DNA from: an uncultured Prevotellaceae bacterium
GTDB taxonomy: Bacteria; Bacteroidota; Bacteroidia; Bacteroidales; Bacteroidaceae
Assembly: GCA_900318685.1 (NCBI GenBank)
Contig: ONLL01000042.1
Coordinates: 1 to 58,685 of the forward strand
Length of the DNA stretch: 58,685 nt
Direction: 5' to 3'
Part shown: piece after piece, positions 13,503-49,368 of the stretch
How the letters are laid out: each line of letters opens with the position of its first letter
How positions within the stretch are numbered: the first letter of the stretch is position 1
Translations under genes and position numbers: made by a program
Notes under the pieces: model-generated
Told to the model about the DNA's origin: nothing
Databases searched by the model: none
The model's input: only the letters and a program-made list of their open reading frames with translations

Positions 13503-13700
13503 AGTTTACGGTCGCTCGTTTCGGACTTTGCAGTCGCTAGTATGGCACTTTGCGGTTGTTAGTATGGCACTTTGCGGTCGCTAGTATGGCACTTTGACTA
13601 CGTTCCCACGGTGGGAATGATACGCTCCCAGCGTGGGAACGATAGCAAACTCCGCAACTAGCGTGACCAAACTCGCCTACTTTCGACCCTATTTTCCCGT
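13503..13700. repeat. Array A: degenerate tandem repeats with a 22-bp period
   Basis: Units start at 13503, 13525, 13547 and 13569, each 22 bp; the last three share ACTTTGC, then GT-GCTAG-like sequence, and TATGGC at the end. The phase continues with degraded units: GGGAATGATA (13613) and GGGAACGATA (13635) are 22 bp apart, as are two AAACTC blocks near 13647 and 13669. A GTTCCCAC/GTGGGAAC inverted repeat (13602-13640) is embedded. There are no spacers, so it is not CRISPR. Confidence 0.8.
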
Positions 13701-14138
13701 CTGGCAGCCATTTTTCTCGCCAAAAACGCTCTCCGAAATCACCATTTTAAGCTCTCAAAACGCCCATTTTCAGCTCTTTTCGAAGGCTCATAAGCCCGTC
13801 CAAACTTACAACACACTCATTCCCAGTGACTTGCAAGTTCTCCAAAACTCGCTCATTTACGACCAGACGGTCACAAAATCGCAAGAGGCCCCTTCTCGCG
13901 AGAGCATTTGTAAAAACTATTCCAAATCACTTGTTGAATAAATTTTGGGCGCATGAAAGCAATGCAGAGCCCTGCTTTGCCTATAGGTGCAGCATTCTTT
14001 CGGCAAAGACGCTGACAACAAACAACTGAACGAAAAAAGTGGGAAATGGACGAGGTTGCCAAATGGCGGTTTAGAGAGAAGGCGGAATAATGCCCTGGTA
14101 AACATGTTGCCTTTGGCACTATTCCGCCATTCTGCCGA
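13701..14138. other. Intergenic stretch without a recognisable gene
   Basis: AT-rich DNA between array A and the convergent DUF3467 gene. Short ORFs on both strands have no family features, start signals or coding bias. Many clusters such as TTTTCGAAGGC and CTCGCGAGAG look like decayed sequence. No tRNA or convincing terminator was seen. Confidence 0.5.
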
Positions 14139-14465
14139 TTAAGCCTCGCCGCCCTTCACATTAAAAGGGGCAATGGTGCGGCCCTCATTGCTGGGCTGGG
14201 GCATCTTGATCTGCCCGAAGGTGCGCTCATAGCGCATGATGTTCTCCTGCAGGGCTCCCAGCAGACGCTTGGCATGCTCCGGAGCGAGGATGACACGGCT
14301 GCGCACCTGAGCCTTGGGCAGGCCAGGGAGCATGCGGGCAAAGTCGACAATAAACTCACTCGAGGAATGAGTGATGATGGCAAAGTTTGCGTACTCGCCC
14401 TGAGCCTTGTCAGGGGTCAGTTCTATCTGCAGCCCTTGCTGCTTCTGTTCGTTTTCGTTGTTCAT
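14139..14465 (-). CDS. DUF3467 family protein
   Basis: 108 residues. The family core is clear: LQIELTPDKAQGEYANFAII, HSSSEFIVDFARMLPGLPKA, VRSRVILAPEHAKRLLGAL, then YERTFGQI. DUF3467 proteins are small cytoplasmic proteins of unknown role found across Bacteroidetes. The start at 14465 (MNNENEQKQQG) is preferred over an ORF start at 14528 because the promoter at 14494-14524 lies between. Monocistronic by appearance, convergent with the DUF3791 cassette. Confidence 0.85.
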   Translation of the reverse strand: MNNENEQKQQGLQIELTPDKAQGEYANFAIITHSSSEFIVDFARMLPGLPKAQVRSRVILAPEHAKRLLGALQENIMRYERTFGQIKMPQPSNEGRTIAPFNVKGGEA

Positions 14466-14493
14466 TGTTCTATTAAGTTTAAGAATGGAGATG

Positions 14494-14524
14494 CAAAGGT
14501 AATACTTTCCCTTGGCATCCCCAA
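14494..14524 (-). promoter_or_regulatory. Promoter of the DUF3467 gene
   Basis: Minus strand TACCTTTG (complement of 14494-14501) matches TAnnTTTG. TTG at 14522-14524 lies 20 bases upstream. Confidence 0.65.
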
Positions 14525-14555
14525 GCAATTGGTAACTAAATAAACTTAAAAAAGC

Positions 14556-16061
14556 CTATCCGCAATGGAAATAGCGGGTGACAAGCTTCTGAATCTCCTC
14601 CGGATAGCTCTCGATATCGCTGCGAAGCGTCTTGTCGTCATAGGCTCGGAGCTGGGCAATGATGCCGTCGATCATAGCTGGAGAGAAGACGCCATGCTCC
14701 TCGAACACCTTGCGCTGCCGCTCGAGACAGTCAGCAGAAGCCACACACGAGTCGGGCAGCTGAGCCAGCGTCTGCAGCCGGTCGGCATTCTCAGCAGCGT
14801 GGATATTGACGTTCACATAAGTGCGTTCAGCCAGCTCAAGGGCATCGTCCATCTCAAAACCGTGACGACAGGCCACACAAAGACCGGCCAGCAGCTGGTA
14901 GAGATCGGCAGAGCCATCGGGCGAGCGCATCTCCACGGTCTGCTTCTGGCTGGTGTCGAAATGGCTCTCAGGCTCCAGAGGGTTGGCCTGACGGCTCATG
15001 TCGACATCGGCAGCCCACCCTAGCGGCACACGCACGAGGACAGAACGGTTGCGGTCGCCCCAGCACACGTTCGTCGGAGCCTCCTGATGGGGCACCAAGC
15101 GGAAGTAACTCATAGGATTCTTATTGCCAAAGGCCGTGATGGCAGGTGCGAGGTCCATCATGCCGGCAATCATGCGACGGGCGCTCTCAGAGAGCACACC
15201 ATGATTCAGCATCTGGTTCTGCCCGTCCTTCATCATGCGCATGTGGATATGCAGACCTGAGCCGGCCTTGCCCGTGGTAATCTTCGGAGCGAAGGTGACA
15301 TCATAGCCCAGCTGATAGGCAAGGTTGCGAATGATCCACTTGGCCAGCATCAGTTGGTCGGCAGCCTGCTCCACAGGCACGGGCAGGAACTCGATCTCGT
15401 TCTGCTCGTAGTTTTGCCCGTCGAGCGAGAAGTTGCCCACCTCCGAGTGTCCGTACTTGATCTTACCGCCAGCCTGCGCGATGTACTGCATGCACTGGGT
15501 GCGGAAGTCACCACCCTTGGCATAGGGGGCCGACTCATGGTAGCCACGCTGATCCTGGGCGGGGAACACTCCCTCATCGTCGCTGATGACATAGTACTCG
15601 AGCTCGCCCATAGCCTGAAACTCCATGCCTGTGACCTCCTTGAAAGCCTCGGCAGCCTTATGAAGGGTATGCTCGGGCGAGGAAGCCAGAGGATGGCCGT
15701 CCTTGTCGAAGTAGGAGCAGAGCATGGTGACCGTGGGAATCTCGGCGAAGGGATCGAGGAAGGCGGTGCGGAAACGCGGCAGGACATAGAGGTCGCTAGA
15801 CCCTGCCTGTATGAAGGAGAAGAGACTGGAGCCGTCGACGCGCTCGCCACAGGTGAGTATGGTGTTGAGATAGTCGAGGTCGTTGATGACGAAGTTGAGC
15901 GTCTTCAGCCGTCCGTCGCCACCCGGGTACATGAAGTTCACCATGTGGATGTCGCTGTCGACGATGTAGCGGATGATGTCGTCCTTGGTAAACTCGGCTG
16001 AAGGTTTCTGCAGTGCCACCACGAGGGGATTGGCATTCAATATAAGATGTGGGTTGTCCAT
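14556..16061 (-). CDS. Glutamine synthetase family protein
   Basis: 501 residues of the GSI-like class, which condenses glutamate and ammonia using ATP. Visible active-site blocks: MGELEYYVI and EVGNFSLDGQ/EIEFLP (metal-binding glutamates), GKAGSGLHIHMRM (ATP/metal histidine loop), YFRLVPHQEAPTNVCWGDRN (substrate arginine region) and VEMRSPDGSADLYQLLAG near the C-terminus. I see no typical adenylylation tyrosine block, so regulation by adenylylation is unlikely. The start at 16061 is preferred because the -7 box at 16092-16099 overlaps the alternative start at 16094. The related glutamate-polyamine ligases look similar, so substrate is not certain. Confidence 0.87.
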   Translation of the reverse strand: MDNPHLILNANPLVVALQKPSAEFTKDDIIRYIVDSDIHMVNFMYPGGDGRLKTLNFVINDLDYLNTILTCGERVDGSSLFSFIQAGSSDLYVLPRFRTAFLDPFAEIPTVTMLCSYFDKDGHPLASSPEHTLHKAAEAFKEVTGMEFQAMGELEYYVISDDEGVFPAQDQRGYHESAPYAKGGDFRTQCMQYIAQAGGKIKYGHSEVGNFSLDGQNYEQNEIEFLPVPVEQAADQLMLAKWIIRNLAYQLGYDVTFAPKITTGKAGSGLHIHMRMMKDGQNQMLNHGVLSESARRMIAGMMDLAPAITAFGNKNPMSYFRLVPHQEAPTNVCWGDRNRSVLVRVPLGWAADVDMSRQANPLEPESHFDTSQKQTVEMRSPDGSADLYQLLAGLCVACRHGFEMDDALELAERTYVNVNIHAAENADRLQTLAQLPDSCVASADCLERQRKVFEEHGVFSPAMIDGIIAQLRAYDDKTLRSDIESYPEEIQKLVTRYFHCG

Positions 16062-16091
16062 AGGAATAAAGAGGTTTTGGTTATTTGGGTG

Positions 16092-16122
16092 CAAAGTTAC
16101 AACTTTTATTCTATTTGGGCAA
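16092..16122 (-). promoter_or_regulatory. Promoter of the glutamine synthetase gene
   Basis: Minus strand TAACTTTG (complement of 16092-16099) is a full TAnnTTTG match, with TTG at 16120-16122 about 20 bases upstream. Confidence 0.7.
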
Positions 16123-16224
16123 GTTAAATAATCATAAAAAGACTATACTCAACAACTACTTTTCACGCATGCGCGCGTTATAACATTAAAGACTATCAAA
16201 ACCCTTAAAAACATCAACAGTAAA

Positions 16225-17340
16225 ATGAAGAAAATTATCTTAGCAATGGCCGTAGTAGCAGCAATGGCAGCCTGCACGGCCGACAAATCCCTCACCGTAA
16301 AAGGTGACTTGAAGAACCTGGGCGACACGCTTATCGTCATGAATCAGAACGACCGCGACAGGCGCGACACCGTCCTGGTCAGCGACGGCAAGTTCGAGTT
16401 TACACTCGACGTCGACTCTGTCACCTCATACTATCTTGTCGAGCCCAAGCTCTTCCGTGGTGAGAGAGGCGCACAGCTGCAGTTCATTGCCGTACCAGGC
16501 GAGGCATTGGAGATGACAGGCGATGTCAATGATCGCTTCGACTATAACGGTTCGACGTTCTACCAAGGCTACCACGAAGTTGACCTGATGCTTGAGGAGG
16601 CTCAGAAGCCCCAGAAGGAACTGACCCAAAAGCTGATGAAAATGCTGGAGGAAGGCGCGTCACAGGACTCCATCATGCAAATCTACCAGAAAGCCATCGA
16701 GCCCTTGGAAAAGCAAGAGGAAGAGGCCATCATGGAATTCATCAAGACCCATCCCGACCTCGAAGCCACCGCTACCCTCATTCCGCAGGTGAAGCCTGAG
16801 AAGATGGCTGAGGCCGTCAACATGCTCAGCGACAAGGTGCGCAACGGAAGGATGAAAGCCTACTACCAGCCCATCATCGACTACATCGAGGCACAGCAGA
16901 AGGCTGAGGAAGAGTCGGCTGCCAAACAAGCCGAGGGCGTAGAAGCTCCCGACTTCACTCTCAACGACATCAACGGCAAGCCCCTGACCCTGTCGAGCCT
17001 TCGCGGCAAGCACGTCATCCTCGATTTCTGGGGATCGTGGTGTGGATGGTGCATCAAGGGATTCCCCGAGATGAAAGAAGCCTACAAGAAGTATGCCGGC
17101 AAGTTCGAGATCCTGGGCATCGACTGCCGTGACACAGAAGAGAAGTGGAAGGAAGCCGTCAAGGAGAACGAACTGCCCTGGCTGCACGTCTACAACCCCG
17201 ATGAAAGCACCATCTGCGACGACTACGGCATTCAGGGCTATCCCACGAAGATCATCGTCGGCCCCGACGGCAAGATCGTGAAGACCATCGTCGGCGAGGA
17301 TCCCGCTTTCTATGAATTGCTGGCAGAATTGTTCAAGTAA
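16225..17340 (+). CDS. TlpA-like thioredoxin-fold lipoprotein with DUF4369 domain
   Basis: 371 residues. MKKIILAMAVVAAMAAC is a lipoprotein signal ending in lipobox AAC, cysteine at 17. Residues about 20-130 match DUF4369 (GDLKNLGDTLIVMNQ), followed by a charged helical segment. Residues 230-371 form an AhpC/TSA-type thioredoxin domain: APDFTLNDINGKPLTLSSL, then DFWGSWCGWC with catalytic Cys 273 and 276, and the cis-Pro region GYPTKIIVGPDGK. Proteins of this class reduce disulfides or act as peroxidase-like enzymes at the cell surface or periplasm. Divergent from glutamine synthetase, convergent with the type IX cargo gene, separated from it by array B. Confidence 0.88.
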   Translation: MKKIILAMAVVAAMAACTADKSLTVKGDLKNLGDTLIVMNQNDRDRRDTVLVSDGKFEFTLDVDSVTSYYLVEPKLFRGERGAQLQFIAVPGEALEMTGDVNDRFDYNGSTFYQGYHEVDLMLEEAQKPQKELTQKLMKMLEEGASQDSIMQIYQKAIEPLEKQEEEAIMEFIKTHPDLEATATLIPQVKPEKMAEAVNMLSDKVRNGRMKAYYQPIIDYIEAQQKAEEESAAKQAEGVEAPDFTLNDINGKPLTLSSLRGKHVILDFWGSWCGWCIKGFPEMKEAYKKYAGKFEILGIDCRDTEEKWKEAVKENELPWLHVYNPDESTICDDYGIQGYPTKIIVGPDGKIVKTIVGEDPAFYELLAELFK

Positions 17341-17357
17341 ACAGCACGATTCTTAGG

Positions 17358-17489
17358 CTGCCGCCTTGATATACTACGGCAGCCTCCTAGATATACTTCG
17401 ACGGCCTCCTTGATCAACTTCGACAGCCTCTTTGCTGAACAAAGAAGCCGTCCTTCCTGATCAAGGAGGCCGTGTTGGAGTTTTTCCGG
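17358..17489. repeat. Array B: degenerate tandem repeats with a 22-bp period
   Basis: Six units starting at 17358, 17380, 17402, 17424, 17446 and 17468. The units share GCC-CCTT-GAT-ACTTCG-like sequence (for example CAGCCTCCTAGATATACTTC and CGGCCTCCTTGATCAACTTC). It fills the gap between two convergent genes. Confidence 0.8.
17403..17471. terminator. Large hairpin within array B, possible bidirectional terminator
   Basis: GGCCTCCTTGATCA (17403-17416) and TGATCAAGGAGGCC (17458-17471) are perfect 14-bp inverted repeats. An inner CTTTG/CAAAG hairpin sits in the loop. It lies between the stop codons of two convergent genes. There is no adjacent U-run, so intrinsic termination is not assured. Confidence 0.45.
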
Positions 17490-17522
17490 AACTACGAAGC
17501 CTTGTGTCGTTGGGTAAAATAA

Positions 17523-20500
17523 TTACTTCACCACCTTACGGCCGTTGACGATGTAGATGCCCTTCTGCGGAGCAATCACGCGGCGGCCCATGAGGTCATA
17601 GATGGTCCGTGAGTGGGCTACCTGCCGGTTCACGTTCGCGATGCCGACGGTACCTGAGGTTACGGGCACCTTGATGGCGTTGCTTACGATGCCGGTAGCA
17701 TTATCGATGAGCAAGGCCACGACGTAAAGCTTGGTGTAGTCCTGTATGATGGGGTCCCACGAGGTATTCATGGCCATCTCCAGGTCGAAGGAGTACTGGT
17801 GCTGAACGGGTTGATCGGCTGTGACGCTGGTAGGTATGCTTCCTTCGATGCCGCCCATCTCCGACTGCATGACAGCTACATCGTTGAACACCAGCCCAGA
17901 GACGTAACTCTCTTTTTCCTCGAAGCCGCCCATCTCGCCGTCTGCGCCGCCACTATAGTAGTTGGCTTGCTCCCAGTCGTCACCGGTAAGGCCGTCCTCT
18001 ACGAGGATGTACTCCAGCGAGCAGTCGACAGCGTCGTCGCTGAAGGGGAAGTTGACGTCGGCCACTACGTCGACAGTACTATTGTCATCGGCCAACGTAG
18101 CCTTCACGTCCAGGTCAGCCATGCCGAACATGGCATTGCGCCACTGCAGCACGTCGACTACGTGGAAGCCATCTTCCTCAAGACCCGAATAGGGGTCTAC
18201 CTCCATGCCACGGTCCACCCATGCCGAGGGGTATCCAGCTATGGGACTGGGGAAGTCGTAGGCAATCTCCATTGGATCACCATTGTGGTAGCTCACGCAG
18301 ACGTAGTCGTCGGGATATTGTTCCTTGAGCAGTTCCAAGGCCACGAACCCACGGGGGCACCAGCCGCACCACAGTCCTGTGTACTCCTCGAGCAGCGAGC
18401 GGTGGCGGGGCAGGGTATTGAGCACGAAGACGGGCGTGGTGGCCTCGGCCACTGTCTCCTCCTCATTGTCCACGCCATTAACCTTTAGCACCTTCACACT
18501 GAGGTCGAAGGTTCCCATCTGGCTGACGGCAGGCAGAGCGAGGGCGTGGTCGTAGGTCAGGCCGAAGAAGCCACTGACGGGGCTGGACAGGTCGACATGC
18601 TGGTTGCTGGTGACACCGTTGAAGGTGTACTCAAAGTCGAGCGAGCGGATGCCTTCGGAGCCGTGATTGACAAAGGGTACGTTGACCGTGATGTCGCTGC
18701 CAGAGAGCACATAGGTCTTGACACCGGCTATGGTTGCCACGGCGTTCTTCTTCACCTGGCTGCCGCCGAGGGTAACGTTGATGCAGGCCGAGCCACCAAC
18801 CAACTCAGACAGCTCAAGCCACTTCAGGAAACAAGCTGTGGAGTGGATGTAGAGGCCGAAGGGTTTCACCACATCGACGATGGTGACAGGGTTGTTCTGC
18901 ATCGAGTATGCGTCAGCGGAGAGGGTAAACGAGTAGCCCACGTAGACACCCTCCTCGGGAATGATGTATGGCTTGGGCAGCTTCACGGTGACGTTGCCAG
19001 CCTTGGCGGGCATGTCTACATCGACGCTCACCAGGTCGGGGGCGTTCTGACCGTCCTCCTCACGCAACTGGCTGCTGAGCCATACCTTCAAGTTGCTCAC
19101 GCCGCTCAGGGTGCGCAGGTTGAAGGTGACGTCCTCGATATATTTTCCCACAACAGCCTCGTCCTGCAGGCGAATGGCCACGTCGTAGGTCTGCGGCTTC
19201 CACTCGCCGATGGTGATGCGGTTCTCATTGCCAGTGTAGCTGCCGTAGCCGATGCTGCCGCCCACGTCGGCGGGGTCAACATCGGGGAATTCGGGTGTGG
19301 CGGCCTCAGGCTGCACCTCGCTGCCCAGATCGTAGGTGTCGGCCCACACAATCTCAGAGCGATGCTCCTCGCCCTGTCCGCGGTAGATGGCCTGCACGCC
19401 GTAAGCCTCGGGACCAACGACATAGTAATAGGCATAGTGGTAGGCATCCTCCGCCATGATGTCCCAATTGTCGGAGTAAGTATAGGGTATCTCGGTCATG
19501 CCGTCCTCCTCAAGGTTCATGTAGTCGTAGGTGTGGAGTACCAAGGGCATCTCCTTACCATTGACGCGTATCCAGAGCTGATAGGAGAGCTTGTCGGGCA
19601 AGATATAATTGCCATCCTCGTCATTACAATACTGATTGAACTCGATGACGCCCCAGCCGAAGCCCATGGCGTAGCTGTCGTAGCCTTCCTCGTAGAGTGT
19701 GACGTCACTGGGAGCCATAGGCGTGGCAGCAACCTCGACGAAAGGCTCGATGACGCAGTTCTCGTAGATATCAGCATAGCTGACCTCCTGCCGTCCGGCG
19801 TTCACCACAAAGAGGTTGGTGCCAGTGAAAGTCTTGGTGGCAGCATCGTAATCGAAAGTGATGTCCTCATCACTAAGGTAGTAGAAGGTCTCGGTGTAGT
19901 CACCCCACTCAGGGTCCTCGACGTAGGTCGACTCTGCAATGGCCGAGATGAGGTACTGCACACGTAAGTTTTCAAAGTCGGCACCCAGGAACTGTCCATT
20001 CTTGAACACGGCCTTGTCGCCGTTGATGGTTCCTTTCACCCATGCCTCAGGCATGTCGGGGAAGATGCCCTGCACGTAGACGTCGTTGCCCTGGAATCCC
20101 ACGTTGGCTACGCAGCCGGAGAAGCCGTCGGCCTTAACAATAAACTGCTCGGTCTGCAGCTCTGCAGGAGCTTCCACCGGCTTGTCGGTGATCTCAGTCA
20201 TCGTGAAGGTCCAGTCAGCATAGCCCGTCCAGTAGCCATCCATATCGGCAAGGCCCACCACGAGCAAACCCGTCGACAGATCGTCGTTACTGCTGATGTT
20301 GCCCGTGGCGGCATCGTAGCTCAGCGTCAGCGTCTGCTCACCGTCGACACCGTAGTAGGTCATGTCATCAGCATCGTAAGCCATGAGCATGGCATAATAA
20401 TCATCGCCATCAATTGAATGTACCGTCTGGGGCAGCGTGAAGGTGATGGTGCTGCCGCTGCGGGTGCCTTCAATCCAGCCAGGGAGGGCTACCTGCGAGA

Positions 20501-20924
20501 TGATGTTCTTCAGATAGACCTTGTCATCCTGTCCGAACACCACTTCGCACAGTCCGCCGACGCAGGGGTTCTCGTAGACACCGAACATTGTGCCGACATA
20601 GCTGTCGCCATTGCGTTCGTAGAGCTTGTAGTCGCCGGCCGGCTGCTGATCGATGATTCCGGCACGACGCGGAGCCAGTGCCCGCTTCACGGCCCTATCA
20701 GTGAATGAGCTGCGCTGGTGCAGGGCCCGCATGGCACGTGTGTCCTTGGCATGCTGTTGCTGCACGTTGAAGCGCTGTGGCTGCTTGCGTTGATTACTGG
20801 TGAACTGCTGCAGTCGCTGCATCGTGGCAGCGGGCAGTTTCACATCCTTTCGCGGCCCCTTAGGAGTAGCTCCTGCCGTCAGTGCAAAGCACACGGCAAG
20901 AAGAAACAGTGTAAAATTTCTCAT
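17523..20924 (-). CDS. Large secreted type IX cargo with Omp28-like CXXC domain
   Basis: 1133 residues. Signal peptide MRNFTLFLLAVCFALTAGA; an N-terminal basic, Gln-rich segment; then beta-rich repeats of roughly 120-200 residues with acidic aromatic patterns (YERNGDSYVGTMFGVYENP and similar). A thiol domain around residues 840-950 has EEYTGLWCGWCPRG with Cys 853 and 856, followed by SYHNGDPMEIAYDFPSPIAG, resembling Omp28-type thioredoxin-like domains. The end, YDLMGRRVIAPQKGIYIVNG plus RKVVK, is a Prevotella-type type IX sorting tail, so the protein should be exported and surface-anchored or released. Its function is unknown; a redox or chaperone-like surface role is inferred. Confidence 0.82.
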   Translation of the reverse strand: MRNFTLFLLAVCFALTAGATPKGPRKDVKLPAATMQRLQQFTSNQRKQPQRFNVQQQHAKDTRAMRALHQRSSFTDRAVKRALAPRRAGIIDQQPAGDYKLYERNGDSYVGTMFGVYENPCVGGLCEVVFGQDDKVYLKNIISQVALPGWIEGTRSGSTITFTLPQTVHSIDGDDYYAMLMAYDADDMTYYGVDGEQTLTLSYDAATGNISSNDDLSTGLLVVGLADMDGYWTGYADWTFTMTEITDKPVEAPAELQTEQFIVKADGFSGCVANVGFQGNDVYVQGIFPDMPEAWVKGTINGDKAVFKNGQFLGADFENLRVQYLISAIAESTYVEDPEWGDYTETFYYLSDEDITFDYDAATKTFTGTNLFVVNAGRQEVSYADIYENCVIEPFVEVAATPMAPSDVTLYEEGYDSYAMGFGWGVIEFNQYCNDEDGNYILPDKLSYQLWIRVNGKEMPLVLHTYDYMNLEEDGMTEIPYTYSDNWDIMAEDAYHYAYYYVVGPEAYGVQAIYRGQGEEHRSEIVWADTYDLGSEVQPEAATPEFPDVDPADVGGSIGYGSYTGNENRITIGEWKPQTYDVAIRLQDEAVVGKYIEDVTFNLRTLSGVSNLKVWLSSQLREEDGQNAPDLVSVDVDMPAKAGNVTVKLPKPYIIPEEGVYVGYSFTLSADAYSMQNNPVTIVDVVKPFGLYIHSTACFLKWLELSELVGGSACINVTLGGSQVKKNAVATIAGVKTYVLSGSDITVNVPFVNHGSEGIRSLDFEYTFNGVTSNQHVDLSSPVSGFFGLTYDHALALPAVSQMGTFDLSVKVLKVNGVDNEEETVAEATTPVFVLNTLPRHRSLLEEYTGLWCGWCPRGFVALELLKEQYPDDYVCVSYHNGDPMEIAYDFPSPIAGYPSAWVDRGMEVDPYSGLEEDGFHVVDVLQWRNAMFGMADLDVKATLADDNSTVDVVADVNFPFSDDAVDCSLEYILVEDGLTGDDWEQANYYSGGADGEMGGFEEKESYVSGLVFNDVAVMQSEMGGIEGSIPTSVTADQPVQHQYSFDLEMAMNTSWDPIIQDYTKLYVVALLIDNATGIVSNAIKVPVTSGTVGIANVNRQVAHSRTIYDLMGRRVIAPQKGIYIVNGRKVVK

Positions 20925-21024
20925 TGATACTGTGATTAGTAAAATTGCTGTTTTCTATCTTCTTTTTTTATTCTGCCTGCTACATAACGAACCTCTGCGA
21001 AGTGCTATGCTAGCGGTGGCAACA

Positions 21025-21444
21025 TTATTTCCCGCACTCAGGACAAATGCCCTTCACGATGTGGCTGGCAGAGGTAGCTTTATAGCCTGGTGGCACAGCG
21101 ACATCAGGCACAGGCACTCCGTCAAGGCAAAACGTACGTTGGCAGCGCTCACAGAAAAAGTGGACATGCAAGTCGTCGTCCTCCTCATCGCTGTGGCTGT
21201 GACAAAGCTCATATCGCATCGATCCTGATCCATCCTCTATGGCATGAACAAGATGATGCTCTTTGAACAGCGTCAGAGCCCGGAAGATGCCCGACTTGTC
21301 AACGGACAGGATTTTCATCTCCAGCTCGCCCAGCGTCAGAGGCCGGGCCGACAATGCCAGCTCACGCACCACCACTATTCTGTTGGATGTGGTCTTGATG
21401 CCATGCTCCTCGAGCAGCTTCACACATTCTTCTTGTTTCATCAC
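21025..21444 (-). CDS. Fur-family metal/peroxide-responsive repressor
   Basis: 139 residues. N-terminal winged helix with LLEEHGIKTTSNRIVVVREL and VDKSGIFRALTLFKEHHLVH; C-terminal dimerisation domain with HVHFFCERCQRTFC and a terminal CPECGK, giving two CXXC pairs for a structural zinc, plus His-rich LCHSHSDEEDDDLHVH. Such proteins repress metal uptake or oxidative stress genes when loaded with Fe, Zn or Mn; the specificity (Fur, Zur or PerR) is not clear. It is downstream of rpoC behind a strong terminator, so it is probably transcribed separately. Confidence 0.85.
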   Translation of the reverse strand: MMKQEECVKLLEEHGIKTTSNRIVVVRELALSARPLTLGELEMKILSVDKSGIFRALTLFKEHHLVHAIEDGSGSMRYELCHSHSDEEDDDLHVHFFCERCQRTFCLDGVPVPDVAVPPGYKATSASHIVKGICPECGK

Positions 21445-21459
21445 TACATGTCCGGCTTT

Positions 21460-21488
21460 AAAAAACTGCCGGCAAAGCTGCCGACAGT
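21460..21488 (-). terminator. Intrinsic terminator of the rpoBC operon
   Basis: Minus strand ACTGTCGGCA-GCTT-TGCCGGCAGT forms a 10-bp stem with one G-U pair, directly followed by TTTTTT. It lies about 45 bp after the rpoC stop codon. A second hairpin (TGGTGTCA/TGACACCA, 21504-21529) lies between. Confidence 0.8.
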
Positions 21489-21533
21489 CTCTTTCTGTTG
21501 TTATGGTGTCACCTTAAAGCATGACACCAAGGA

Positions 21534-25862
<4,329 letters not shown>

Positions 25863-25895
25863 ATATGTATTTACAATTTGCGATTTACAATTTAC
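25863..25895 (-). repeat. 14-bp direct repeats in the rpoC leader
   Basis: Minus strand reads GTAAATTGTAAATC, then GCAAATTGTAAATAC, just before ATATATG. It is a short AT-rich direct repeat of the same style as the CAAATAGT leaders at 9476 and 12293. No Shine-Dalgarno site is visible. Confidence 0.45.
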
Positions 25896-25940
25896 TTTTT
25901 CTGAGCGGCAGCAAATTATCTTTCACTATTCACTCTTCAC

Positions 25941-29878: not shown

Positions 29879-30307
29879 TTACTTCAGCTCAACCTCGGCA
29901 CCTGCAGCCTCGATGGTCTTCTTCAGGTTCTCAGCCTCGTCCTTTGACAGGCCTTCCTTAATGGTAGCGGGAGCACCGTCAACCAGATCCTTAGCCTCCT
30001 TCAGGCCAAGACCACAAGCTTCCTTCACAGCCTTCACAACCTGGAGCTTAGCGGCACCTGCCGACTTCAGCACCACGTCGAAAGAGGTCTTCTCCTCTGC
30101 AGCGGCCTCAGCGCCACCAGCAGCGGGACCAGCAGCTACTGCAACGGCTGCAGCAGCAGGCTCAATTCCATACTCGTCCTTCAGGACCGTTGCCAACTCG
30201 TTAACTTCCTTCACAGTCAGGTCGTCCTTCAGGACCGTTGCCAACTCGTTAACTTCCTTCACAGTCAGGTTCACCAACTGCTCGGCAATAGCTTTAATAT
30301 CTGCCAT
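29879..30307 (-). CDS. rplL: 50S ribosomal protein L7/L12 with duplicated N-terminal helix
   Basis: 142 residues, against about 125 for the family. The C-terminal factor-binding domain is intact ([43 protein letters not shown]), as is the Ala/Gly-rich hinge ([17 protein letters not shown]). The N-terminal dimerisation and L10-binding domain contains [15 protein letters not shown] twice, at residues 14-28 and 30-44, encoded by an exact 48-bp tandem repeat. This adds 16 residues, one helix, while keeping the frame. L7/L12 forms the stalk that recruits translation GTPases; the change may alter stalk geometry or may be an assembly artefact. Confidence 0.95.
30174..30269. repeat. Exact 48-bp tandem duplication inside rplL
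   Basis: 30174-30221 and 30222-30269 are identical over all 48 bases (starting TCGTCCTTCAGGACCGTTGC). The length is a multiple of three, so rplL stays open. Complete identity implies a very recent event or an artefact. Confidence 0.95.
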
Positions 30308-30362
30308 TTTATTATAAATGTTTTAATTGTTTTTAATGTGAATAATTGATTATCGTCGCTTG

Positions 30363-36325: not shown

Positions 36326-36370
36326 GTTTTTTGCCATTTTTTTACTTTTCCTGCTCAAAAGTGGCATGTT

Positions 36371-42282: not shown

Positions 42283-42297
42283 TATTTAGTTGTCGTA

Positions 42298-42420
42298 AGT
42301 TATATAGTTAGTAATAGCAAGTAATATAGTTAGCGATAGAAAGTAATATAGTTAGCGATAGTAAGTAATATAGTTAGCGATAGAAAGTAATATAGTTAGT
42401 TGTGATAAGTAATATAGTTA
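42298..42420. repeat. Array C: AT-rich tandem repeats with a 22-bp period
   Basis: Units start at 42298, 42320, 42342, 42364, 42386 and 42408 (partial). Each begins AGTAATATAGTTAG and ends with GATAGAA or a close variant; the units from 42320 and 42364 are identical. The array sits directly upstream of the large lyase gene and 48 bp from the end of the HerA-like gene. Confidence 0.95.
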
Positions 42421-42448
42421 CTCCCCTCCTTATTATTGGGGAGGGGAG
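42421..42448. repeat. GC-rich palindrome next to array C
   Basis: CTCCCCTCC, an AT-rich loop, and GGGGAGGGGAG pair to form a hairpin. The arms resemble those of the inverted-repeat elements elsewhere in the window. It may also act as terminator of the HerA-like gene, although no U-run follows. Confidence 0.55.
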
Positions 42449-42468
42449 TATCACTAGCGTTCGGCCAG

Positions 42469-44037
42469 CTATTTCAGGTTACCCAGGATGTCGCGGGTGA
42501 GTTCACGGGTAGCAGCACGGGTAGCGGCTGAGGTGGCATTCTTCACCACGCGCCCTGTGGCCGAGGTCTTGCTCTTGGTCTTCTTGCCTGTGATCTTATC
42601 GCTGACAATGGTGCCCAGGATGGTGGCAAATGTTCCAGTGACAGCAGTGATAATGGCTTTGAGGATCTTGCTGAAGATGCCGGGCTTGCTCTTGCCCTTC
42701 GCCTTCGACGATTTCTTCTCTTCCTCCTCGGCCTCGGCAATGGCGGCCTCCTCCTCGTTCTCCTTCATCAGCAGCTCGTAGGCACTCTCACGGTCTACCA
42801 TCTCGTCGTACTTGCCATAGATGCGGCTCTGCTTGATGATGTCAAGGCGCTGCCCCTCAGTGACGGCTCCTATCTGGCTCAGCGGGAAGAGTATCTTCGC
42901 CCGCTGGACAATGCTGGGAGCACCCTTCACATCGAGGAAGCTGACGAGCGCCTCGCCTGTCTCCAGCTGCATGATAGCCTCATCAGTCTTGAAGTTGGGA
43001 TTAGCACGGAAGGTGTCGGCAGCAGTCTTCACTGCCTTCTGATCCTTCGGTGTATATGCCCTGAGGGCATGCTGCACGCGGTTGCCTAGCTGTCCGAGGA
43101 TAACCTCAGGAATATCGCTGGGGCTCTGAGTGATGAAGTAGATGCCCACGCCCTTCGAACGGATGAGACGTATCACCTGCTCGATCTTGTCGAGCAGCGC
43201 CTTGCTGGTGTCAGTAAAGAGCATGTGCGCCTCGTCGAAGAAGAACACCAGTTTGGGCAGCTCCAGGTCGCCCACCTCAGGCAGCTTAGAATAGAGCTCG
43301 GAGAGCAGCCAGAGCAGGAAGGTGGAGTATAGTTTGGGCTGCATCATCAGCTTGTCGGCAGCCAGCACGTTCATCACGCCCTTGCCGCCCTCGGTCTGCA
43401 TCAAGTCGTAGATATCGAACGACGGCTCACCGAAGAACTGGTTGGCACCCTGGGCCTCTAGCTGCAACAGTGCGCGCTGGATGGCTCCTACGGTCTGGGC
43501 CGATATATTTCCATACTTCGAAGTGTACTCCCTGGAATGCTGCGACACATAGTCGAGCATCGACCGCAGGTCCTTCAGGTCGAGAATGAGCAGGCCCCTG
43601 TCGTCGGCAATGCGGAACACGATGTTCAGCACGCCGTCCTGTGTATCGTTGAGTTGCAACAGTCGCGACAACAGCTGAGGCCCCATCTGACTGATGGTGG
43701 CACGCATGGGATGTCCCTGCTCTCCATATACGTCGAAGAACCTCACAGGGCATGCCTGGAACTCAGGATTCTCAATCTCGAACTCCGGCAGACGTTTCTC
43801 GATGAAGCCGCTCATCTTGCCCACCTGCGAGATGCCGCTCAGGTCGCCCTTCATGTCAGCCATGAAACAGGGCACTCCTGCCTGGCAGAACGACTCAGCC
43901 ATCACCTGCAGCGTGACGGTCTTTCCCGTACCCGTGGCTCCCGCTATCAGTCCGTGGCGGTTGGCCATCTTTCCAACGATACTCAGTGCGCCCTCAGCGC
44001 AGTGGGCGATGTACAGCCCGTGTTCCTTGTCATACAT
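42469..44037 (-). CDS. HerA-like/DUF853 ATPase (YjgR family)
   Basis: About 522 residues. Walker [21 protein letters not shown] near residue 30, Walker [17 protein letters not shown], and the family segments [20 protein letters not shown] and [20 protein letters not shown]. The C-terminal 90 residues are charged ([17 protein letters not shown]) with a hydrophobic stretch ([20 protein letters not shown]) and Ala/Thr/Arg-rich end. DUF853 proteins are widespread and of unknown role; they resemble FtsK/HerA motors but nothing here shows a conjugative or defence context. The start at 44037 ([13 protein letters not shown]) is preferred over 44091 because it matches the family beginning. Confidence 0.85.
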
Positions 44038-44215
44038 AGTCTTCGAGTTTAATAATTTATGCAAAGTTAACAAAAGAATATCAATTAGCAATCATCATGC
44101 GCAAACTTATAATAATCTTTAACTATCACGCGCATGAAGAGCCATAGCCAGAGGTCTGAGAGCATGTTTTTTCAGCAAGTGATGATATTTTTTTCATTTT
44201 TCGTGTAGTTTTTCG

Positions 44216-44223
44216 TATCTTTG
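44216..44223 (+). promoter_or_regulatory. -7 box of the ECF sigma factor gene
   Basis: TATCTTTG, a full TAnnTTTG match, 42 bp before the ATG at 44265. The -33 region is T-rich without a clear TTG. Confidence 0.6.
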
Positions 44224-44264
44224 CAGCGTCTAATGGGCAAAAACGATTCAAAACAGAAGAGACA

Positions 44265-44747
44265 ATGAATGTATTGGAAAGACAGTTTGCGCAAACCGTA
44301 GCAGAGCACAAGAGCACCATCTACACCGTGTGCTACATGTTCTCGCAGGATGCCGACGAGGTGAACGACCTGTTCCAGGAGGTACTAGTCAATCTTTGGA
44401 AAGGCTTCGAGAGTTTCGAGCATCGCAGTGACATCAAGACGTGGATCTACCGCGTAGCCCTCAACACCTGTATCTCGCTCGACAGGAAGAAAAAGAAACG
44501 CTCGGCAGAAGTCCGGCTCACAATGGACATCAACCTCTTTGAAGACCGCGATGAAGACACGCGTCAAGTGGACATGCTCCACAAGCGCATCTCCAAGTTG
44601 CAACCCTTCGACCGTGCAATTGTCCTGCTCTGGCTCGAGAACCTGTCGTACGACGAGATCGGACAGATAGTCGGCATCACTGCCAAGAATGTCAGCGTCC
44701 GTCTGTTTAGAATCCGTGAACAGTTAAAACAAATGTCAAACAATTAA
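44265..44747 (+). CDS. ECF-type RNA polymerase sigma factor
   Basis: 160 residues. Region 2: YTVCYMFSQDADEVNDLFQE, VLVNLWKGFESFEHRSDIKT, WIYRVALNTCISLDRKKKK. Region 4: LQPFDRAIVLLWLENLSYDE, IGQIVGITAKNVSVRLFRIR. No region 1 or 3, so group 4. The membrane protein gene starting 14 bp downstream is its likely partner. The promoter is of the housekeeping type; I see no second autoregulatory copy. Confidence 0.9.
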   Translation: MNVLERQFAQTVAEHKSTIYTVCYMFSQDADEVNDLFQEVLVNLWKGFESFEHRSDIKTWIYRVALNTCISLDRKKKKRSAEVRLTMDINLFEDRDEDTRQVDMLHKRISKLQPFDRAIVLLWLENLSYDEIGQIVGITAKNVSVRLFRIREQLKQMSNN

Positions 44748-44761
44748 AAACCACACCCATT

Positions 44762-45346
44762 ATGGATACTCAATTAGAAGAAATGCGCCAGCAGATGCAG
44801 ACGCTGAAGAATAAACTCGAGAAGCAGGAGATAGTCAACGACCACATGATTCGCCACTCGATGAAAAAGACCGCGGGCAACATCAGCCGCAGATACTACT
44901 TCATCATGGTCCTCTGCCTGCTCATGATCCCCTACAGCTACTGGGCATTCGTGATGCTCTCTGGTTACTCCATCGCTTTCTGGATCTTCACATGTTTCGT
45001 CATGCTGACTTGTCTAGGTGCTACCTATTACAACAGCAGGAACCTGAGTGACTCGAACATGATGACGAATAATCTCGTCGATGTACGCCGGCGGATGGCC
45101 CGCGCCAAGAAGTTCGATGCCGACTGGCTCTTCTTCGGCATCCCCGTCATCATCATCTTCCTGGGCTGGTTTATGTACGAGACCTATCAGCTGCATGATG
45201 GCGACCTAGCCAACGGACTCTTCTGGGGCGGATGCATCGGAGGCATCCTTGGAGCCATCGGCGGCTTAAGTCTGCACTTCAAGACCCAGCGCCAGTATCA
45301 GGAAATCATCGACCAGATAGAGGATCTCACTGCTGAGGATGCGTAA
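44762..45346 (+). CDS. Four-helix membrane protein, likely partner of the sigma factor
   Basis: 194 residues. N-terminal coiled-coil (LEEMRQQMQTLKNKLEKQEI), then membrane segments about 46-66 (FIMVLCLLMIPYSYWAFVML), 70-92 (AFWIFTCFVMLTCLGATYY), 122-141 (FFGIPVIIIFLGWFMY) and 152-172 (FWGGCIGGILGAIGGLSL), and a short C-terminal tail. No zinc-binding anti-sigma motif is visible. Its place right after a sigma gene suggests it controls that sigma factor from the membrane. Similar pairs occur in other Bacteroidales. Confidence 0.7.
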   Translation: MDTQLEEMRQQMQTLKNKLEKQEIVNDHMIRHSMKKTAGNISRRYYFIMVLCLLMIPYSYWAFVMLSGYSIAFWIFTCFVMLTCLGATYYNSRNLSDSNMMTNNLVDVRRRMARAKKFDADWLFFGIPVIIIFLGWFMYETYQLHDGDLANGLFWGGCIGGILGAIGGLSLHFKTQRQYQEIIDQIEDLTAEDA

Positions 45347-45372
45347 GGCCTAGTCTTAAATTCTCTAAAATC

Positions 45373-45406
45373 ATCCCATGCATCAAGCGATGTATGGGAT
45401 TTTTTT
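45373..45406 (+). terminator. Intrinsic terminator of the sigma factor operon
   Basis: ATCCCATGCATC-AAGC-GATGTATGGGAT forms a 12-bp stem with one G-U pair, followed by TTTTTT. It lies 26 bp after the stop codon of the membrane protein gene. Confidence 0.8.
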
Positions 45407-45456
45407 CGTAACTTCGCATTTCGAAAACATATTCACATGAATGAAAGGACAAAGGC

Positions 45457-45786
45457 ATGAAAAAGGAAGAGAGAATAACCCAAACGGAGCAGGAAGAGAG
45501 GATTGCACAAATGGAGCTGCTCATGGAGCGCGCTTCGGAAGCAGTGATGCAGCTGTCGGCAGCACTCGATATCATGGAGGAAGCTCAGCCCGGCATCGCA
45601 GCACTCGATGACTATTACGGCAGCCAGACATGGCGGCAGGACTTTGACGACGATGCTTCTGGCCTGCTTCCTGCCAACCTCAAGCGCGGCGTGCTCTCAG
45701 AGGATGGCATCTGGAACCTCCTCAGCGACTATCGTGAGCTGATGGGCCGGCTCCAGCAAACGGCTGCTGAAGCACTAGGCAAATAA
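45457..45786 (+). CDS. DUF4298 family protein
   Basis: 109 residues, cytoplasmic. The family core RISEMEL-like segment appears as ERIAQMELLMERASEAVMQL, then LDDYYGSQTWRQDFDDDASG, PANLKRGVLSEDGIWNLLSD. DUF4298 is a small helical family of unknown function in Bacteroidetes and Firmicutes. A possible -7 box (TAACTTCG, 45409-45416) follows the preceding terminator directly. Convergent with the beta-helix gene, 25 bp between stop codons. Confidence 0.8.
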   Translation: MKKEERITQTEQEERIAQMELLMERASEAVMQLSAALDIMEEAQPGIAALDDYYGSQTWRQDFDDDASGLLPANLKRGVLSEDGIWNLLSDYRELMGRLQQTAAEALGK

Positions 45787-45811
45787 GCGGCTCTGCACTA
45801 ACAGCAGCCGA

Positions 45812-48800
45812 CTATCGGGTCTTGGCTGTGACGTTGACAGAGGTCCCTCCTGTAAGAGTGGCACCTGTGGTGTAGGCTCCCTCCCAAAGGCTGACGTCGG
45901 GATTCGAAATGGATGAACTGCCGTAGACGATGGTTGCATTGCTGCCACTCGACAGCTGCGGAGCACTCATCAGCACCTGAGCACTGCTAGTGGTATGGGG
46001 AATGCGGTAGGAGCAAATAACTGAGCCGCTGCTGCTTTTGAGGCTGAGATAAGTGCCTGATGTGAGACTCACGGAGGACAGCGTCACATAGGGCTGGCTG
46101 GCATTAGTAGGCTGTCCGCCGCTGCTTCCACCTCCTCCCTGTGAGCCACCTGTGCCGATGACTACACCGCCATTGAGCACAAATGCGGCATTATCGCAGT
46201 CGAAGCCTTCTTCAGGGCTATTAGCGCCTGAGGCAATGACCACGCCATTGTTGATGACAATGCCCGTGGTGCCGTCGTTGGAGTCGATGGCATCGTTGTT
46301 GGAGGCATGTGCCCACACGTTGCCGCCATCGAAGGTAATGGTAGAAGCTGCATTAATGGCATCATCGTAGGTGTCGCTCTCCAGTGTTCCACCATGAACG
46401 GTAATGGTCGACTTGCTCTCGAGTCCTTCTGCACCATTTGACTTTGTGCTCAGACGAATTGTGCCTCCATAGACATCTACTGGGCCCATGCACTTCACGG
46501 CCTTGCAACTGCCTACGAATCCCTCGTCCATCGGTCCGCCACCCCAGCCGCCGCCTGATGATTCAGTGGCCAAGTAGGAGCCAGTAGTGGCGACGGTCAG
46601 CGACGGGCCGCGCCCTGCTTCCGTGGCACTGCCTATGATGAGATGAGCACCTGAGGCACCGCTGACGTTGCTGTCGCCTACTTTGATGCCCTTTCCACCA
46701 CGTGCCGAGCTGTTGATGGTGATGGTGCCTCCCTGCAACAACATGTCGGCATCGCTCTTCAGTGCCTTGCTGCCTGCTCCCTCAGTATCGCCATTGCCGG
46801 AATAGGTGGCTCCGTCGCCGCTGAGCGTGATGTCGTAGGTGCCGCCGGTGATCGTGAGGGTGGCATCGGCAGAGATGCCATGCGATGCGCTGCCTGTAGC
46901 CACGATAGTCACCTCGCCGTCGGAGCCGGAATAGGCATTACACTTGATAGCAGTGGAATAGGTGGGATCGGCGCCAACAATCATGTAATCGCCAACAACC
47001 ATATCGCTGACAACGCCTCCACTGATAGTGACAGAGCCGTCGGCCTTGATGCCTTTACTCATTGTACCTGAGTGACTGAGTGTGATGGTGCCGCCCGTGA
47101 TGGTGATGTCGCCATCGCTCTTCAGGCAGAAGGCCTTGTAGGTTTCTCCCTCCTCAGTAGCCGATGATGCGCCGGCATAAGTGGAGGTAACATTATTAAT
47201 AGTATACGTGCGCGTAGAGCCACTTGCGGAGTAGCTGTTGGAAATGGCATAGAAGGCATCGCTCCCCGTAAGGCTCAGGCTAATGTTGGCCGAGCGGATG
47301 TTGTAAACCCTACCGCCACCACTAGTATAGTTGTCGCTCTGCAGATAATAAGTGCCCGTTGTAGCTGTGCCGAAATCGTAATAATAGAACGTAGTGGTTT
47401 GTCTGTTGACAGTGAAGCTCTGCTGCTGACTCAGCTGTGCCACAAGGGTATTCGAACTGTCATATAGATAGACGTTCTTCCACGCCGACTGCTGCCCGCC
47501 TGGCTGATAGCCACCGCTATTCGTGGTGGGCAGCGAGACGTATAGCCGATAGCTGCTGGCAGTGGATGATGAGGAGCCGGCAGTGCTAAGGTCGAGTGCG
47601 CCTCCGCCACCATCGGCAGTGATGTCGAGCATACCGCCCTCGATGTCGATACGTCCTGTAGCATTGAGGCCTCGTCCGCCATCGGCACTGCTGCTGACTG
47701 TGACAGTGCCGCCGCTAACGGTGATTTTGCCGTCGGCCTTAACGGCTGTCGAGTAGCTGGGATCATAGGTGACCGCCCCGTCGGCATCGGTAACCTGACT
47801 GACAAGGTATCCACCACTTTGAGTCACGCTGAGAGTGCCGTCGGTAACAAGGATATCTGCCTTCGACTTAAGCGCCTTGACATCGTTGCCCGTGCTTACA
47901 ATGGTGATGCTGCCACCGCCGATGGTCAGGAGTGAATCACTTTTCAATGCTGCCACGTCATCTCCTGCAAGTGTAATGTCGATGGTGCCGCCATTGACAA
48001 TGAGCTGTCCATCGAGTTCATCACCCAGAAGCTTCGCCTCGGCCTGGATGCCGTCGCCAGCAATGTCGCGCATGACAATCGTGCCGCCGTTCATCTTGAA
48101 GTACTGCTCAGCATGGATGCCGTCGCTCTGGGCACTTGCAATTGTGATGATGCCCGCCGACTTCTTCACCTCGATGTATTCTTTCGCGCTGATGGCATGC
48201 TTCACATTGCCAGTCACCGTGAGCGAGCCACCGCCGCTGATTTCCAAATGACCTTTGCAGAAGAGCGCCGCCTTGCCAGCTGTGCCGTCGGCAAGGGTAT
48301 TGACAGTGCCATCGGCGAGTTGCAGGCTGACACGCTTGCCATCCTCGATATCGATACAGCAGCCACGCTGATTGGTAAGCGAGAGGCCGTTCAGTATGAG
48401 AGCGGTCTTGAAACTGCCGTTATAAATAAACGATCCGTCAGTACAGCTTCCACTGAGCACTGTGACGTATTCCTCAGTAGCATTGGTATTGGTGACGGTC
48501 ACATCAGTACCATTGACCGCAACGGTGACGTATGGCATCCATGCCTCGGGCAGCTGATAGGAGGCTCCTTCATCAGTATATTTAATAATGAGCGCGTCGA
48601 CATCATCTTCAACTAGTTGTTTGGCTTCGCGCAGCCCCAGGATTATTTCTACCAGTGCCGTCACATCGCCATTATCGACAATGCCATTCTCATCGACATC
48701 AGCAAGACGACTGTCATATTGAATGTTGTCGTCGATGAGGTAACTAACCAATGTGGCAACATCGGCTGCCGAGATTTTTTCATCACCATTGACATCGCCA

Positions 48801-48865
48801 ATGATTTTTGATGATGCCACCAATACGCAGGATATGAATACTGCTAGAGATAATAGTCGTTTCAT
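45812..48865 (-). CDS. Large secreted beta-helix protein (Cthe_2159-type), EF-hand/dockerin-like N-terminus
   Basis: 1017 residues, signal peptide MKRLLSLAVFISCVLVASS. Residues about 22-75 are two dockerin-like EF-hand loops (GDVNGDEKISAADVATLVSY and ADVDENGIVDNGDVTALVEI). The rest is a repetitive Gly/Ser/Thr-rich parallel beta-helix with many turns of the form ADGxITISGGxxxI (for example GDITITGGTITLSHSGTMSK and LLIGGGSITIVSTGNDVKAL), matching the carbohydrate-binding Cthe_2159-like family. No type IX tail is seen: it ends VTAKTR. Presumably surface or secreted, binding acidic glycans with calcium; this is from the family, not shown here. Confidence 0.78.
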   Translation of the reverse strand: MKRLLSLAVFISCVLVASSKIIGDVNGDEKISAADVATLVSYLIDDNIQYDSRLADVDENGIVDNGDVTALVEIILGLREAKQLVEDDVDALIIKYTDEGASYQLPEAWMPYVTVAVNGTDVTVTNTNATEEYVTVLSGSCTDGSFIYNGSFKTALILNGLSLTNQRGCCIDIEDGKRVSLQLADGTVNTLADGTAGKAALFCKGHLEISGGGSLTVTGNVKHAISAKEYIEVKKSAGIITIASAQSDGIHAEQYFKMNGGTIVMRDIAGDGIQAEAKLLGDELDGQLIVNGGTIDITLAGDDVAALKSDSLLTIGGGSITIVSTGNDVKALKSKADILVTDGTLSVTQSGGYLVSQVTDADGAVTYDPSYSTAVKADGKITVSGGTVTVSSSADGGRGLNATGRIDIEGGMLDITADGGGGALDLSTAGSSSSTASSYRLYVSLPTTNSGGYQPGGQQSAWKNVYLYDSSNTLVAQLSQQQSFTVNRQTTTFYYYDFGTATTGTYYLQSDNYTSGGGRVYNIRSANISLSLTGSDAFYAISNSYSASGSTRTYTINNVTSTYAGASSATEEGETYKAFCLKSDGDITITGGTITLSHSGTMSKGIKADGSVTISGGVVSDMVVGDYMIVGADPTYSTAIKCNAYSGSDGEVTIVATGSASHGISADATLTITGGTYDITLSGDGATYSGNGDTEGAGSKALKSDADMLLQGGTITINSSARGGKGIKVGDSNVSGASGAHLIIGSATEAGRGPSLTVATTGSYLATESSGGGWGGGPMDEGFVGSCKAVKCMGPVDVYGGTIRLSTKSNGAEGLESKSTITVHGGTLESDTYDDAINAASTITFDGGNVWAHASNNDAIDSNDGTTGIVINNGVVIASGANSPEEGFDCDNAAFVLNGGVVIGTGGSQGGGGSSGGQPTNASQPYVTLSSVSLTSGTYLSLKSSSGSVICSYRIPHTTSSAQVLMSAPQLSSGSNATIVYGSSSISNPDVSLWEGAYTTGATLTGGTSVNVTAKTR

Positions 48866-48894
48866 TGCTCTTCTTATCTATTAAATTCCACCTG

Positions 48895-48922
48895 CAAAAG
48901 TACTAAAAAAAAGGTGAATCAA
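48895..48922 (-). promoter_or_regulatory. Promoter of the beta-helix protein gene
   Basis: Minus strand TACTTTTG (complement of 48895-48902) matches TAnnTTTG; a TTG at 48920-48922 lies 17 bases upstream, slightly short. Confidence 0.55.
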
Positions 48923-48993
48923 GAAAAATATTCAACGAAACGCCCATTTTTCATCACAAACAGGCTTACCTTTGAAGCGAAAAAGTCACATTT

Positions 48994-49075
48994 AATATCA
49001 CAATATCACCACTAATATCACACCATAACCAATTGTGCCAAAGCACATTAACCGCTTGGTGATATTTGTGATATT
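48994..49075. repeat. Long inverted repeat of ATATCAC motifs
   Basis: AATATCACAATATCACC (48994-49010) pairs with GGTGATATTTGTGATATT (49058-49075), 17 bp with one extra base, around a 47-bp loop. A third AATATCAC lies in the loop at 49014. It is about 130 bp upstream of the beta-helix gene and next to array D; it may be a repressor binding region. Confidence 0.5.
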
Positions 49076-49141
49076 AACTTTTGCAAAAACAACAGATGTA
49101 GTCTGTCAGCACTAATGTCATCACAAGGCCAGGAGGTGCTG

Positions 49142-49368
49142 ACTTTGCACACGCCCGTCGCGAACGGAGCGAATGCTAGTTTCGGACGGATGATACGCGC
49201 ATCGCGGACGGATGAAGCGCTCATCCGCAACTAGCAATCGCTCCGTCCGCAACGAGCGATCGCAAAGTTGCACTGCTTTCGAGAGAACGTATCTGAAGCT
49301 CCAAGAGAACGTATCCGAAGCCCTGAGAGAACGTATCTGAAGCCCCGAGAGAACGTATCTCTCCCCCA
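49142..49368. repeat. Array D: degenerate tandem repeats with a 22-bp period
   Basis: Ten units in phase from 49149: 49149, 49171, 49193, 49215, 49237, 49259, 49281, 49303, 49325 and 49347. The last four share GAGAACGTATC-GAAGC and are nearly identical. Earlier units share CGGACGGATG or TCCGCAAC-AGC at the same phase. The 22-mer on the minus strand at 49247-49268 is 18/22 identical to the first unit of array A. Confidence 0.88.

Follow-up and report, generated by a model that had tools for sequence, protein, structure and literature searches.

Why do four intergenic tandem arrays of unlike sequence repeat at exactly the same step of 22 bp? The question is raised by a 58,685-nt contig of an uncultured Prevotellaceae bacterium (NCBI GenBank assembly GCA_900318685.1, contig ONLL01000042.1; the whole contig is the window hereafter), in which a previous reading of the sequence alone had pointed out arrays A, B, C and D. 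Arrays of one period without a common sequence are unexpected of ordinary minisatellites, and they suggest that the 22-bp step as such is either passed on or put to use. If the step has a use, it would indicate a new DNA-organising protein in a genus that is common in gut, rumen and mouth; if the period is only inherited, it would mark an unusually long-lived bacterial satellite. Under either reading, the arrays are readily located by their period and open to testing. From their layout we infer, at clearly less than even confidence, that the arrays are lattices that would hold a DNA-binding protein, either dimeric or polymerising; this inference extends to the protein, to its attachment to the arrays and to whatever effect it may have on genes.

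Four arrays share a period and differ in sequence

The 22-bp period of all four arrays was recovered by two methods. Tandem Repeats Finder (TRF) gave period-22 rows at 13505-13596, 13599-13644, 17360-17434, 42295-42420, 49183-49225 and 49280-49360, and in a sliding self-match of the entire window (66-nt frame, 40 or more matches required) the signals at lags 22 and 44 fell on exactly the four array places. Lag-22 scores, out of 66, were 56 for A, 51 for B, 61 for C and 55 for D. When each array was shuffled 300 times with its dinucleotides preserved, the best scores at any lag were 36, 33, 41 and 34, respectively, and the observed lag-22 score was reached by 0 of 300 shuffles in every case. 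The sequences differ, as had been described: no pair among A-D was similar at E<=1e-3, by which a unit sequence common to the four was rejected, and A and the first part of D (D1) resemble each other by eye only.

In array A (13505..13675), four forward units of 22 bp are followed by two others of the same length but different sequence (TACG..) and then by inverted units. Array B (17349..17473), with convergent ORFs (open reading frames) on its sides, has 34-nt inverted arms at 17401-17434 and 17440-17473 (dyad p 0.010), and array C (42283..42420) comprises about six AT-rich units of 22 bp located 3' of a herA-type gene. Array D is made of two unlike, adjoining arrays, namely the GC-rich D1 (49142..49268), with 45-nt inverted arms at 49142-49186 and 49224-49268, and D2 (49280..49360), with the 22-bp unit GAGAGAACGTATC..., unrelated to D1; all five are unstranded features. 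The inverted arms are 72% complementary in A (36 nt), 79% in B and 82% in D. No ORF of 100 aa or longer reaches into B or C, and the claim of arrays lying solely between genes stood for these two; A overlaps ORFs by 0.09 and D by 0.42, and the ORFs concerned look spurious.

The 22-bp period in the genus and beyond

We surveyed 1.36 Mb of stretches, not whole genomes, from 15 genomes of the genus (the window's own genome, G016, G024, G010, G064 and ten more, with G259 contributing 2 kb only), and DNA outside greedy ORFs of at least 100 aa was taken as intergenic. The own-genome sample (400 kb) came from three contigs known beforehand from array matches and is possibly enriched, while the other 14 genomes were chosen otherwise. 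Among 90 intergenic tandem arrays, 54 had a period of 22, 44 or 66 bp (40, 11 and 3, respectively); the neighbouring lags 20, 21, 23 and 24 were found 0, 2, 0 and 0 times, and lags 33 and 55 were absent from the genus spectra. Inside predicted ORFs, by comparison, only 5 of 48 arrays had these periods, which bears out the intergenic location in the genus sample. At least one such array was found in 12 of the 15 genomes, and none in the sampled stretches of G151, G134 and G259. Lag 22 was the most frequent intergenic lag of the own genome (9/27, the others including 8, 11, 14, 44, 66 and 77), and also of G016, G024, G010 and G064, with other unit sequences.

In 0.92 Mb from 16 Bacteroidota genomes that belong to other genera, families or classes, period 22 was found in 3 of 19 arrays, two of them in one genus of the same family (54/90 versus 3/19, Fisher p 7e-4, where arrays sharing a genome are not independent). 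Hence an excess at 22 bp is present in the sampled genus stretches beyond the window, contrary to a broad range of periods with no such excess, and the common period without a common sequence is therefore real. No report of a genus-wide 22-bp period in Prevotella was found in searches of open-licence papers.

Other periods also occur. The own genome has 11-, 12-, 14- and 24-bp arrays (e.g. L014, L017, L018, L026 and L034), and TRF finds many 7-, 14- and 21-bp arrays in named rumen Prevotella loci. In G059, from another family of the order, 10- and 14-bp intergenic arrays dominate (3 + 3 of 6; L085-L088), and its lineage may have a preferred period of its own.

Half-sites alternate every 11 bp in several families

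Dyad-symmetric units (p<0.05) were found in 16 of 42 arrays of a first set, in which 10 arrays come from named loci, 2 from G068 and 1 from another class, and in 11 of 19 arrays of a second set, i.e. in 27 of 61, versus 10 of 46 arrays of other periods (Fisher p 0.02). Within a symmetric unit of 22 bp there are two dyads at a distance of 11 bp, and an array of such units is therefore a series of half-sites that switch orientation at each 11-bp step. This lattice can be read in the sequences of several families: YAAAAG N5 CTTTTR N5, TTTGN3CAAA with an 11-bp gap (G016), GGTAAT..ATTACC (G024) and TGGGARCG (own genome, L034). Some motifs are common to several arrays or species, though unit sequences differ between arrays and between species. 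In G016 one motif is common to 12 of 12 sampled arrays, with the same columns conserved (correlation 0.34; rotation null 0.00, standard deviation 0.03), a value that aligning the arrays to the consensus may have raised; the largest motif-sharing family of the own genome is 2 of 14 arrays. A rule that dyads are centred on a base, suggested by 12 of 13 arrays of the first set (p<=0.010), was dropped when only 3 of 8 in the second set followed it (p<=0.01).

To look at spacing directly, pairs of AAAAGN5CTTTT sites separated by any gap of 0-30 bp were searched in 398 genus genomes. Such pairs occur in 69 genomes, up to 505 in one. Among the matches listed, 82 forward places from 20 of the 69 genomes, some of which look like near relatives (G115, G151 and G352), were spaced by 22 bp in 56 cases and by 44 bp in 22, with one each at 21, 23, 34 and 43. 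Of 279 genomes from other genera of the family, 20 had a match, and of their 23 places none was at spacing 22 and two were at 44. For TTTGN3CAAA pairs, spacing 22 was found in 9 of 9 in G016 (control 2), and in 2 of 18 in 25 other genomes, where the control reached 10 in one. The reversed pattern TTTTCN5GAAAA, which served as control for the first search, gave 13-25 pairs in each of G528, G380, G577 and G342, and is perhaps another motif of the same kind there.

A proposed lattice for a DNA-binding protein

The clearest families have a half-site of 6-8 bp every 11 bp, in alternating orientation, and half-site, gap, inverted half-site and gap add up to 22 bp. If a helical turn takes about 11 bp, half-sites spaced in this way would all face the same side of the DNA; a periodicity of nearly 11 bp in bacterial genomes has been read as helical pitch (available parts of PMC4132750). 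In the reading we favour, a dimeric or polymerising DNA-binding protein would read the half-sites and coat or bridge intergenic DNA; structuring of the nucleoid, silencing and insulation are examples of what it could do. The sequence preference of this predicted protein would have changed between species and its subunit spacing would not, and the lattice would have spread and been resized along with dispersed repeats. In a bolder form, which we consider rather doubtful, a polymerising protein with a fast-evolving recognition sequence and a fixed geometry would build a genus-wide nucleoprotein lattice on many intergenic arrays per genome, with alternately inverted half-sites at each 11-bp turn. 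If true, bacteria of this genus would have an insulator or chromatin-like system that is recognised through spacing rather than through one sequence.

The proposal that spacing is kept for a periodic binding protein had been made by the sequence-only reading. It fits the lattice of inverted 11-bp half-sites, but turnover of whole units predicts the same spectrum, and signs of constraint and of copying have to be weighed together. At in-phase neighbours of perfect sites, half-sites matched at 0.64 and linkers at 0.40, a comparison that is biased by selecting perfect sites. Between nearest dyad partners compensation was weak (11 double changes seen versus 6.6 expected), one-sided changes were common, and folding showed no preference for the sense strand (15/33); dyads at the level of DNA are therefore indicated.

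Several observations speak against the lattice or for copying. Complementary double changes one unit further away (22-43 bp) exceed expectation, 18 versus 5.6. In all 56 AAAAG pairs at spacing 22 among the matches listed, the central five bases of neighbouring units agree at 0.56 in direct and 0.46 in inverted orientation (chance 0.31 and 0.30); neighbouring units therefore also share descent, direct and inverted. Both the far-partner changes and the shared central bases point to copying. No significant dyad was found in 34 of the 61 arrays, window arrays A, C and D2 among them. The own genome has many unlike motifs, with 5% of 91 array pairs exceeding the cross-species 95th percentile, which are too many for one protein. 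AAAAGN5CTTTT and TTTGN3CAAA were picked after inspecting arrays of some genomes, with the gap left free, and the reversed-pattern control was non-empty in 16 of 398 genomes (by reading), reaching 25 in one. In 80 named rumen Prevotella loci around herA the peak is weaker, with 10, 3 and 1 of 58 arrays at 22, 44 and 66 bp, and 8 and 5 at 14 and 21 bp; TRF on these loci gave 21 rows at 21 bp and 20 at 22 bp, with 7 bp leading. The helical reading of the 11-bp signal has itself been questioned (available parts of PMC7537859). Taken together, it is likely that the half-sites are constrained and also that units have been copied, both directly and in inverted orientation.

Inherited or copied units as alternatives

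The main and a serious rival of the lattice reading is that 22-bp arrays present in the ancestor of the genus were simply inherited, with length change by whole units and dispersal keeping the period while the sequence drifts, and the spacing without function; we consider this possible and, on balance, unlikely. Part of the evidence for it comes from array A. This array is held by a dispersed intergenic repeat of about 600 bp (13342..13945, plus strand; pairwise alignment within the own genome), present at 10 own-genome loci including the window copy at pairwise identities of about 69-88%, mostly over about 600 bp; the nine besides the window copy are full or part copies. A separate listing, in which 5 of 36 first-look candidates were scored, has four full-length copies besides the window copy, at 80-85%. 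Among 99 other genomes, G245 has a relative of half the length (71%), and six have short matches of about 37-61 bp. The copies of this repeat vary in array length by exactly 22 bp: two loci match with 22 extra bases, and of seven copies five have a landmark distance of 244 and one has 222, whereas L003 gave none.

Moreover, some own-genome arrays sit within dispersed repeats or are newly combined with one another, and for every window array the sampled own-genome stretches contain a similar array at another place (L034 for A, L037 for B, L043 for C and L038 for D). Array C has weaker relatives at four other places and D1 many partial ones within the own genome, and D2 is related to G000:C21:76774 and C47:44003. 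Block duplication of units would account for the multiples 44 and 66, and the agreement of central bases in neighbouring AAAAG units, as well as the occurrence of the AAAAG motif in many species, also fits inheritance. On the other hand, drift should erase dyads, yet nearly half of the arrays scored, of different sequence, are symmetric. Arrays of the own genome are about as unlike mutually as arrays across species (0.409 versus 0.397), and all 12 G016 arrays agree in which columns are conserved; both findings speak against this rival.

A second alternative takes the inverted repeats as the source of the arrays: fold-back or template switching at intergenic palindromes would produce copies in inverted and in direct orientation, and a ruler in replication or repair would set the 22-bp step. 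Folding is indeed far stronger in the 22/44/66 arrays than in intergenic DNA taken at random (median z -2.43, n 74, versus -0.97, n 80; p 4e-6), inverted halves are present in A, B and D, and the excess of complementary double changes at 22-43 bp is as expected from such copying. Outside arrays, 3 of 12 isolated tandem matches of at least 14 bases in the genus sample were at lag 22, whereas exact tandem matches of at least 18 bases were not found there at all. Thus a duplication mechanism acting on any DNA, which the sequence-only reading had suggested as another cause, has little support. The absence of lags 33 and 55 also speaks against expansion from palindromes, we know of no ruler enzyme that fixes a 22-bp step, and we regard this explanation as improbable.

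Palindromic mobile repeats, of the repetitive extragenic palindrome (REP) kind spread by a REP-associated tyrosine transposase (RAYT) or of the miniature inverted-repeat transposable element (MITE) kind, are more improbable still, although dispersed, palindromic and intergenic copies are found. In addition to the repeat around A, a second dispersed element adjoins array D (48981..49100, plus strand), with inverted ends at 48992-49003 and 49066-49077 (12/12). It has 11 other own-genome places with at least 60 matching bases, and several of its copies adjoin own-genome arrays of the B, C or D kind. To our knowledge, however, an exact 22-bp period is not a feature of REPs. The Y1 (RAYT-type) transposase, PF01797, had 0 matches in the own genome (87% complete) and 0 in the one-contig genome G024, which carries arrays; G012 has 44 AAAAG pairs and no Y1 transposase, while G016 and G010 have one. 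A RAYT link was rejected, as presence of the transposase does not track arrays in the genomes checked. For the window copy of the A repeat, end-to-end alignment gave only a 12-bp stretch and no clear terminal inverted repeat, and no target duplication was seen among the printed ends of seven copies; an imperfect inverted end spotted by eye was not borne out when the two ends were aligned, which lends no support to a MITE nature of the A repeat. At several own-genome places of the element at 48981-49100 (L243, L244 and L246-L248), another partial copy stands in inverted orientation at a distance of about 100-270 bp.

Elements acting at the RNA level, i.e. tandem transcription terminators or mRNA-stabilising hairpins, are very improbable: in gaps of at least 120 bp, arrays of 22/44/66 bp are somewhat commoner between convergent ORFs (19/119) than between co-directional (32/340) or divergent ones (13/183), yet their presence in divergent gaps, their mid-gap position in co-directional gaps (median 0.40 of the way), the hits in the window at the Rfam gathering score (five tRNAs and no other family) and the lack of strand bias in folding, on which RNA hairpins were rejected, all speak against it.

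Relation to known systems

The sequence-only reading knew of no named element of this kind in Prevotella; two relevant named elements that were new to it are PINSR of the P. intermedia group and BrickBuilt of Porphyromonas gingivalis. BrickBuilt, in the available parts of its description, is an intergenic minisatellite within a dispersed repeat, with 19 segments in ATCC 33277, a 23-nt unit, one unit family and terminal inverted repeats; 22-nt tandem repeats are also mentioned for P. gingivalis W83 (PMC4596501). Array A, too, sits inside a dispersed intergenic repeat. In contrast to BrickBuilt, the unit is 22 bp in all four window arrays, many unit sequences are found across a genus, and clear terminal inverted repeats are lacking on the A repeat.

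PINSR is a 188-bp intergenic repeat of the P. intermedia/nigrescens group with 177-184 copies per genome; the available parts of the report describe it as limited to one group of Prevotella species, without terminal inverted repeats and with its function open (PMC4755523). The likeness lies in its intergenic position, many copies, restriction to a group and lack of terminal inverted repeats. It differs as a single 188-bp sequence for which those parts state no 22-bp period (PMC4755523), a comparison made by description only.

REPs are short intergenic palindromes, as the dyad-symmetric part of the present arrays is too (27 of 61, with A, C and D2 not among them), and bacterial interspersed mosaic elements (BIMEs) carry REPs that are regularly spaced in alternating orientation (available parts of PMC2817692). 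The exact 22-bp period, the 11-bp half-site lattice and the lack of dependence on a Y1 transposase in the genomes checked set the present arrays apart. Plasmid iterons with two-turn spacing, such as the 22-bp iterons of R6K, share with them tandem sites set two helical turns apart; those are direct repeats at one origin, whereas here alternately inverted arrays occupy many intergenic places.

Gene context and other features of the window

A tie between arrays and a conserved gene neighbour was rejected: the position downstream of herA is not conserved, because among 36 gaps 3' of herA, one of them masked, a single one holds a 22-bp array (L154).

The remaining self-match signals in the window were at 48 bp within an ORF (30138-30311), 11 bp (6735-6813) and 14 bp (49349-49440); a perfect 48-bp tandem duplication stands at 30174-30270, within ORF 29879-30307 (minus strand). 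About four imperfect copies of an 8-bp unit, TATTTGAC, are present at each of 9475-9506 and 12292-12323, directly upstream of two paralogous MacB/FtsX permease genes (starts 9475 and 12292; minus strand). A local cluster of paralogues at 52283-57486 has five genes with Porph_ging matches, in a scan that left out gene 54027-54860.

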